Shown: positions 62,303-64,000 of the stretch, in pieces | How the letters are laid out: the number at the start of each line of letters is the position of its first letter | Position numbering within the stretch: position 1 is the stretch's first letter | NCBI RefSeq assembly: GCF_000007345.1 | Contig: NC_003552.1 | Coordinates: 62,001-126,000 of the forward strand | Origin: Methanosarcina acetivorans C2A | Lineage (GTDB): Archaea; Halobacteriota; Methanosarcinia; Methanosarcinales; Methanosarcinaceae | Direction: 5' to 3' | DNA: 64,000 nt | Notes under the pieces: generated by a model | Database searches by the model: none | Told to the model about the DNA's origin: nothing | Seen by the model: the letters and a program-made list of their open reading frames with translations, nothing else | Position numbers and translations under genes: made by a program

Positions 62303-62579
62303 TTTATAAATCCTCGTAAAATTGATCGGGGGATATAGGGTAATTGTGAATTTTTGACTTGTCCGAAATACTATGGATAAAGGGAATCATTATATTAAAT
62401 TTGCACTGCTCTGAGACGGCGGGTTGAAGAAGGTGAGAAGAAGATTATGGATTCGATTTTGCTCTAAATAATAGTTTCTTTATACAAACCTAAACCTCTG
62501 TGTCCTAATTTTTACATAAATTCCTTATATCAAAAAACCAATATATGCCCATAAAAATAGGGATTATGAGGTAGATTGC

Positions 62580-63614
62580 GTGGTCAAGTCTTTCGAGGCG
62601 CAGAAACTTTCATTTTCAATCGATGGAGAAGAAAAAATACCTGCAATCGAAATGGTTGGGACTATACAACACATACAAAATATTATTTTTCACTTGGGTG
62701 ACTATTTTTATGGCAATCCAAGTCGTCCGAAAGGGGACTTTCCGCAGGTTATCAAAGATTCATGTACCCTTTTTGTAACAAATATAGAAATGGGTAGCGT
62801 TCATGCTGAAATGCAAATAGGTGACGCTCAAGTTGGTATAACAGATTTGGGAACATTGGGTGAGAGAGCGATTTGTGCAACAAACGAGTTAATTGAAACT
62901 CTTTCTCACGCAGATGTTTCAAAAGAAGAACTGGGCGAAATAATTAAAGATCCTCACAGGTTAAACAAAGTATTAAAAGAATTCTACTTAATGTGGCCTG
63001 ATCCGCAATCGAAAAGAAGTCTAACTTTTGGTTTCTCAGGAAAAGTTGAAGAAAATTTAAATCCAGAACAAAAAGAGGTAATACGATCCATCTTACGTAA
63101 ACCCGTTGAAGAATACGAAAAAGAGGTTTTTGGAAGAGTTTATGAGCTACGGGTCGACAAAAACAGAAGGATTCAAATCGACACTCCGGAAGGAGCAATA
63201 GATTGTAATTTCACTGCGGATATCGAAGAAGATATCAAAGATATTATTGGAAATATTGTTACCATACGTGGTGTAATGAAGCCTTCAAAAGGCAAATTCG
63301 TTTTGAGTATTGACAGCGAAGTTTCGATTGAAAGAAATTCACGATACTATCTTGCCTCAATTAAAAGAGATGAGATTGAAGTGAAATTGAAAGAAGAAGT
63401 TCCAATTGATATTGAATTTGAGGATGATTATTATATAGCTTCAAATGATGATTTAGGGCTTCTTGCTGTTCAACCAAAAATGAAGCTTTTGATCGAGGAA
63501 CTCAAAGGACAGCTTAACGTTTTATGGCAAGAATATGTGCTTGCCGATGAAGAGGAGTTGGCACCCAGTGGCAAAGATCTGAGGGAAATGTTAATTTCAA
63601 TTGTGGGTGCTTAA
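62580..63614 (+). CDS. Uncharacterised 344-aa protein, first gene of a putative toxin-antitoxin-like operon
   Basis: Start is GTG 62580, with GAGGT 7-11 nt upstream. I do not recognise the N-terminal ~200 residues. The middle, with KEVFGRVYELRVDKNRRIQI then GNIVTIRGVMKPSKGKFVLS, looks like a small beta barrel. The C-terminus, LIEELKGQLNVLWQEYVLA then DEEELAPSGKDLREMLI, resembles the tails of proteins often encoded beside HicA/YcfA-type toxins. The next gene starts 1 nt after this stop. The AT-rich composition differs from glyS. An antitoxin or sensor role is inferred, not shown. Confidence 0.65.
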   Translation: MVKSFEAQKLSFSIDGEEKIPAIEMVGTIQHIQNIIFHLGDYFYGNPSRPKGDFPQVIKDSCTLFVTNIEMGSVHAEMQIGDAQVGITDLGTLGERAICATNELIETLSHADVSKEELGEIIKDPHRLNKVLKEFYLMWPDPQSKRSLTFGFSGKVEENLNPEQKEVIRSILRKPVEEYEKEVFGRVYELRVDKNRRIQIDTPEGAIDCNFTADIEEDIKDIIGNIVTIRGVMKPSKGKFVLSIDSEVSIERNSRYYLASIKRDEIEVKLKEEVPIDIEFEDDYYIASNDDLGLLAVQPKMKLLIEELKGQLNVLWQEYVLADEEELAPSGKDLREMLISIVGA

Positions 63615-63615
63615 A

Positions 63616-63894
63616 ATGTCTAAATATAAAGTAAAAGACATCGAGTCTTCTTTATCTAAAAAGGGATTTCAGCTTCAAAATTCTCATCATAAATTGTATA
63701 CATACTATGTTAGTGGAACCAAAACAAGAATTCATACTTTTATAAGCCATGGAAAAGATGAATATGGTGACAAGCTGTTAGGCAAAATGAGAAATCAACT
63801 TAAGTTATCACATCAACAATTTGATGATCTGATTCGATGTCCTTTATCTAAAGAGGAATTAAATGAAATTTATTCTAAAAACAAATATATTTAA
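63616..63894 (+). CDS. HicA/YcfA-like putative mRNA interferase
   Basis: A 92-aa basic protein with a double-stranded-RNA-binding-like pattern. It has KYKVKDIESSLSKKGFQLQN, then SHHKLYTYYVSG and a THTF-type strand (RIHTFISHGKDEYG), closing with KMRNQLKLSHQQFDDLI. The SHHKxY position corresponds to the catalytic His loop of HicA toxins. I chose ATG 63616; a TTG five codons earlier overlaps the upstream gene. It probably cleaves mRNA or binds RNA, held in check by the upstream protein. This is longer than a classical HicA and could instead be a related RNA-binding fold. Confidence 0.65.
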   Translation: MSKYKVKDIESSLSKKGFQLQNSHHKLYTYYVSGTKTRIHTFISHGKDEYGDKLLGKMRNQLKLSHQQFDDLIRCPLSKEELNEIYSKNKYI

Positions 63895-64000
63895 TTCTCT
63901 TTCAATCCCTCTGTCTCTTCCTCAATATGCTTTTTTTAATTTTTCAAAGTTGTTAACAGTAAATTCATGTATTTAAATCCATAGATGAATAATAGATGAG

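Follow-up and report, generated by a model that had tools for sequence, protein, structure and literature searches.

A probable Class 8 hicBA toxin–antitoxin operon in Methanosarcina acetivorans with a repeatedly gained or lost N-terminal antitoxin module

Among the described HicA–HicB toxin–antitoxin (TA) systems, the closest to the locus considered here is Class 8 hicBA of Gerdes (2024, mBio), in which the antitoxin gene comes first and is closely linked to the toxin gene or overlaps it. The encoded HicB, 331-356 codons long, is divided into three domains: the N-terminal one has no assigned function, the middle one (175-253) is LysRS-like and the C-terminal one (255-342) has the HicB fold (PMC10865869). 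The HicA of this class has about 95 aa and a dsRBD fold followed by two additional C-terminal helices, and a recognisable DNA-binding domain was reported to be absent (PMC10865869). Outside the hicBA systems, DUF6575 came up in a defence screen and was named as a defence domain, and one DUF6575 protein is a component of phage defence (PMC9519451). A literature search for experiments on Class 8 or on the genes described below, in which the locus tags used were guesses, found none.

The locus lies at the 3' end of the window, i.e., the analyzed stretch of 64 kb (coordinates 62001-126000 of the 5,751,492-base genome of Methanosarcina acetivorans), where two genes on the + strand form an operon (Table 1). 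As in Class 8, hicB precedes hicA, with a single base (A at 63615) between them; the HicB length of 344 aa falls within 331-356 codons, a LysRS-like middle domain and a HicB-fold C-terminus are present, and the 92-aa HicA carries the two additional helices. No defining difference was observed; the middle domain is called an OB-fold here and is Stn1- and RPA-like too. Since every tested defining feature of Class 8 was found, the pair is regarded as a member of an already described class, and its reading as a Class 8 hicBA type II TA operon, composed of a predicted His25 HicA RNase and a tail-bearing HicB with an accessory N-terminal/OB module, is given a probability of about 0.88. The initial annotation, whose coordinates, 344-aa partner and 1-nt gap are exact according to ORF reading, had described a HicA-type toxin beside an unfamiliar partner that could represent a new TA type with an added sensing domain; the HicA-type toxin and the long multi-domain partner with an antitoxin-like tail stand, whereas the novelty of the type is contradicted by the fit to Class 8.

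Classical hicAB systems with HTH or RHH HicB (Classes 3 and 4) share with the window pair the HicA fold, the functional His and a HicB-like toxin-binding domain, but in the window the gene order is reversed, the HicB-like domain is C-terminal, a recognisable DNA-binding domain is missing from HicB, and the toxin has two additional helices; consistently, no C-terminal HTH or RHH domain of the kind present in Classes 3 and 4 was detected by Pfam in the long antitoxin. The hicBA systems of Classes 5 and 6, whose HicB has an N-terminal Phd/YefM domain, are similar in placing the antitoxin first, the toxin-binding domain at the C-terminus and an accessory part at the N-terminus, whereas the accessory part in the window is an alpha/beta plus OB module.

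Table 1. Features of the window pair (window positions) and loci of related pairs with RHH-type antitoxins
Feature	Position	Strand	Basis
Leader/promoter block conserved in relatives	62508..62579	+	alignment with three Methanosarcina relatives
TATA-like AATATATG	62540-62547	+	inferred assignment
Ribosome-binding-site-like GAGGT	62568-62572	+	inferred assignment
hicB-type antitoxin gene (Class 8 HicB, 344 aa, three domains, GTG start)	62580..63614	+	ORF
N-terminal alpha/beta domain, about residues 1-171	62580..63092	+	AF2; boundaries as in Class 8 (PMC10865869)
Middle OB-fold domain, about residues 175-253	63102..63338	+	AF2, Foldseek
C-terminal HicB-like tail, predicted toxin-binding, about residues 255-344	63342..63611	+	AF2, hhalign
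hicA-type toxin gene (Class 8 HicA, 92 aa, ATG start)	63616..63894	+	ORF
His25 codon, aligned with functional His of HicA GSH motif	63688..63690	+	alignment, hhalign
His45 codon, conserved SHG motif, aligned with His of HicA P-x-H motif	63748..63750	+	alignment, hhalign
Two additional C-terminal toxin helices, residues 66-74 and 79-88	63811..63879	+	AF2 model
RHH-type antitoxin hicBA loci	L017:1486-1902, L033:1076-1492, L037:1035-1472		
RHH-type antitoxin hicBA loci	L090:1419-1838, L091:1199-1633, L092:1489-1935		

The 92-aa protein is a divergent HicA. In a single-sequence search, it matched Pfam PF07927 (HicA_toxin) with E=0.0016 and 18.9 bits, which is below the 27-bit cut-off; PF07927 matches were obtained for 18 of 28 toxin homologues (best E 1.2e-7), and the toxin profile aligned with four HicAs of its own genome at 94.7% in hhalign. 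The AlphaFold2 (AF2) model (pLDDT 86.6) has the order H-E-E-E-H followed by two more helices, and Foldseek returned HicA TTHA1913 as its best PDB match (1whz, probability 1.00, although the E-value against HicA was a modest 1.1e-2) and the HicAB complex 6g26 as the next (probability 0.77). The likeness to HicA is weak by single sequence and becomes firmer with the homologue family, the profile-profile comparison and the AF2 model. His25 occupies a nearly invariant column of the toxin alignment and falls on the GSH His of the own-genome HicA L046; its equivalent in a characterised HicA, His24, is required for toxicity (PMC3969222).

Searches with the antitoxin alone against Pfam, NCBIfam, PADLOC and PDB sequences gave nothing convincing. 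Its AF2 model (pLDDT 86.6, pTM 0.52) contains three domains, the arrangement of which is uncertain because of this pTM. The middle domain consists of E179-191, E197-202, E205-211, helix H213-222, E226-236 and E239-244, and its top Foldseek matches were Stn1, lysyl-tRNA synthetase and archaeal RPA, with LysRS entries predominating in the top 50, at a modest E-value of 2.8e-3. Nucleic acids are the usual ligands of OB-folds. In the C-terminal tail, beta strands are followed by helices H301-320 and H329-342, and the last 80 residues of the antitoxin aligned with HicBs of the same genome (hhalign 82%, E 1.1e-5 over 41 columns); weak Pfam PHD_like (PF12910) matches to the tail were also obtained in relatives. 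The three elements proposed by the initial annotation were recovered: a HicA-like toxin with both the fold and the catalytic-type His in structure prediction and alignment, a beta-barrel-like middle that is an OB-fold by AF2 and Foldseek, and an antitoxin-like tail that is HicB-like by AF2 topology and hhalign.

Conservation upstream of the operon, as judged by alignment with three Methanosarcina relatives, begins only at about 62508 and extends as far as the start codon, and an inverted-repeat search revealed no convincing palindromic operator upstream of the window pair.

The two genes are conserved together far above chance, and a lack of joint conservation, which would have spoken against the initial reading, was not observed: the toxin lies directly downstream in 35 of 36 distinct long-partner loci (the exception being a contig edge), and a tail-bearing gene lies directly upstream in 68 of 69 distinct toxin loci. 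Across 67 homologous pairs, gaps are mostly between -35 and +15, and the two genes typically overlap or lie a few bases apart. Purifying selection acts on both genes, with dN/dS values against Methanosarcina relatives of about 0.06-0.08 for hicB and 0.09-0.11 for hicA. A search with the antitoxin profile matched 57 of 393 genomes of the phylum, representing 34 of 136 genera, many of them by the tail only. For nine homologues consisting of the tail alone, no HicA could be recognised next to the gene, a point against the TA reading. Solitary tail-only HicB-like genes of this kind occur at L094, L102, L103, L104, L109, L110 and L113; the L094 gene overlaps an ATPase-like gene, and those of L103 and L109 are flanked by enolase-like and transporter-like genes.

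Within Methanosarcina, the full-length pair was found in four of 31 genomes and a short-tail version in two, whereas the glyS flank is present in all 31; in the three genomes inspected, the full-length pair is near glyS. The junction between glyS and the downstream nucleotidyltransferase gene in genome G395, which has no pair, measures about 170 bp compared to about 1.5 kb in the window; within this genus, the cassette is thus present or absent as one discrete unit. In genome G331 (L124:11944-12936), a DDE transposase gene and other genes are situated between glyS and the pair, as would fit a variable site adjoining glyS. Immediately after the pair, nucleotidyltransferase (MNT) and HepT-like genes, which are further TA-type genes, are clustered (window 63996-64000; L122:9996-11620). 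In one genome (G016), an in-frame TAG stands where the long antitoxin gene (L006:1579-2529) should encode the conserved Trp of the tail; the reading frame continues past this codon, and the downstream toxin gene is open. Decoding as pyrrolysine was rejected, as no PylS match above the cut-off was present in that genome, and the TAG therefore looks like a nonsense mutation.

Carriage by a virus was also detected. MFTV1, an archaeal tailed virus of Methanocaldococcus, bears a full long-antitoxin hicBA pair (gp38-gp37, L081:4249-5542); both genes are annotated as hypothetical, and an ArsR-type regulator gene is located a short distance upstream. Scans of viral contigs using the window antitoxin and a relative's toxin as queries gave no relatives, and a plasmid search with both window proteins gave no match. 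A distant toxin is encoded by the cyanobacterial Geminocystis plasmid pGM3709_06 (L082:3-562), where a tail-like ORF overlaps it just upstream.

The partner of the toxin is variable outside its tail. In 25 paired tail-bearing genes, the N-terminal part is different or absent, so that the toxin-tail core is found with short partners, and seven paired antitoxins combine the same C-terminal tail with an N-terminal ribbon-helix-helix-like (RHH) domain (PF24434/PF02697; DUF7557/VAPB) (Table 1). According to the main text of the Class 8 paper, none of the 14 published HicA classes combines a leading antitoxin gene with an N-terminal RHH domain (PMC10865869). On a tree of 67 toxins, which has few columns and many weak branches, the partner architecture changes at least eight times, and the toxins with long partners fall into more than one clade (AU p 1.4e-5). 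Measured against the toxin, the long N-terminal module has thus been acquired or lost several times, which argues that it is accessory. Promoter palindromes were more pronounced in RHH types than in long types (mean z 1.37 vs 0.0, one-sided p 0.018), a weak contrast between related rows.

Beyond what was computed, namely the folds, the position of the catalytic His, the coupling of the genes, their selection and the modularity, a mode of action can be proposed. By analogy with the family, HicA would be a ribonuclease (mRNA interferase) using His25, and the long protein would be a HicB antitoxin whose C-terminal, partial-RNase-H-like tail binds and blocks it. The alpha/beta domain and the OB barrel would together be an accessory module, located where some other HicB-type antitoxins have a DNA-binding domain. 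The most likely ligand of this module, though proposed with low certainty, is nucleic acid or a nucleic-acid-bound partner, and binding could control how the toxin is made, placed or released.

What the accessory module does allows more than one explanation. It might serve autoregulation of the operon only, in place of the RHH, HTH or Phd domains that other HicBs possess, a reading that deserves consideration even if we lean against it. The same N-terminal slot does hold the RHH-like domain (PF24434/PF02697) in relatives, and the palindrome excess in RHH but not long-type promoters is consistent with a different binding mode; however, that contrast is weak, and Class 8 is without a recognisable DNA-binding domain (PMC10865869). 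A further point against autoregulation concerns the kind of ligand. Single strands or RNA are bound by OB-folds more often. It is rather unlikely, on the other hand, that the N-terminal and OB module is an infection sensor from which binding of a viral protein or nucleic acid frees HicA, leading to antiviral growth arrest. The repeated architecture changes around a constant toxin-tail core, the usual nucleic-acid binding of OB-folds and the adjoining TA-type genes fit such a sensor, and among the best viral Foldseek matches, with an overlap of about 270-290 columns, is one protein named DUF6575, the defence domain mentioned above. This overlap is loose (TM 0.33), though, and a DUF6575 profile gave no Pfam match in any of 16 antitoxin-family members at E up to 1; moreover, a virus itself bears the pair. 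The predicted structural similarity to phage proteins of the DUF6575 type is only a lead.

A more specific proposal seems clearly doubtful; in it, an exchangeable module akin to DUF6575-type defence proteins senses infection or nucleic acid and switches on the shared HicA-tail core, and RHH relatives use ordinary repression. Very improbable is the view that the genes are no TA pair at all and that a dsRBD-like RNA-binding protein and an OB-fold partner form a housekeeping RNA-binding complex: both predicted folds are of nucleic-acid-binding types and purifying selection is strong, but the patchy distribution as a discrete cassette (four of 31 Methanosarcina genomes), the carriage by a virus, the relative on a plasmid, and the conserved catalytic His together with the HicB-like tail speak against it. 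The Class 8 hicBA TA operon remains the preferred reading of the window pair.

Compared with the existing description of Class 8, the present analysis adds the short and RHH-type partners, the repeated gain or loss of the module and the carriage by MFTV1. That the module was swapped repeatedly while the toxin-binding core stayed constant suggests a plug-in design by which one RNase is controlled; if the sensor reading were true, the relatives with RHH modules would run the same HicA-tail core under ordinary repression. Class 8 hicBA has so far been described from sequences and models alone, and the copy in the genetically tractable Methanosarcina acetivorans makes the roles of the OB and N-terminal domains directly testable.
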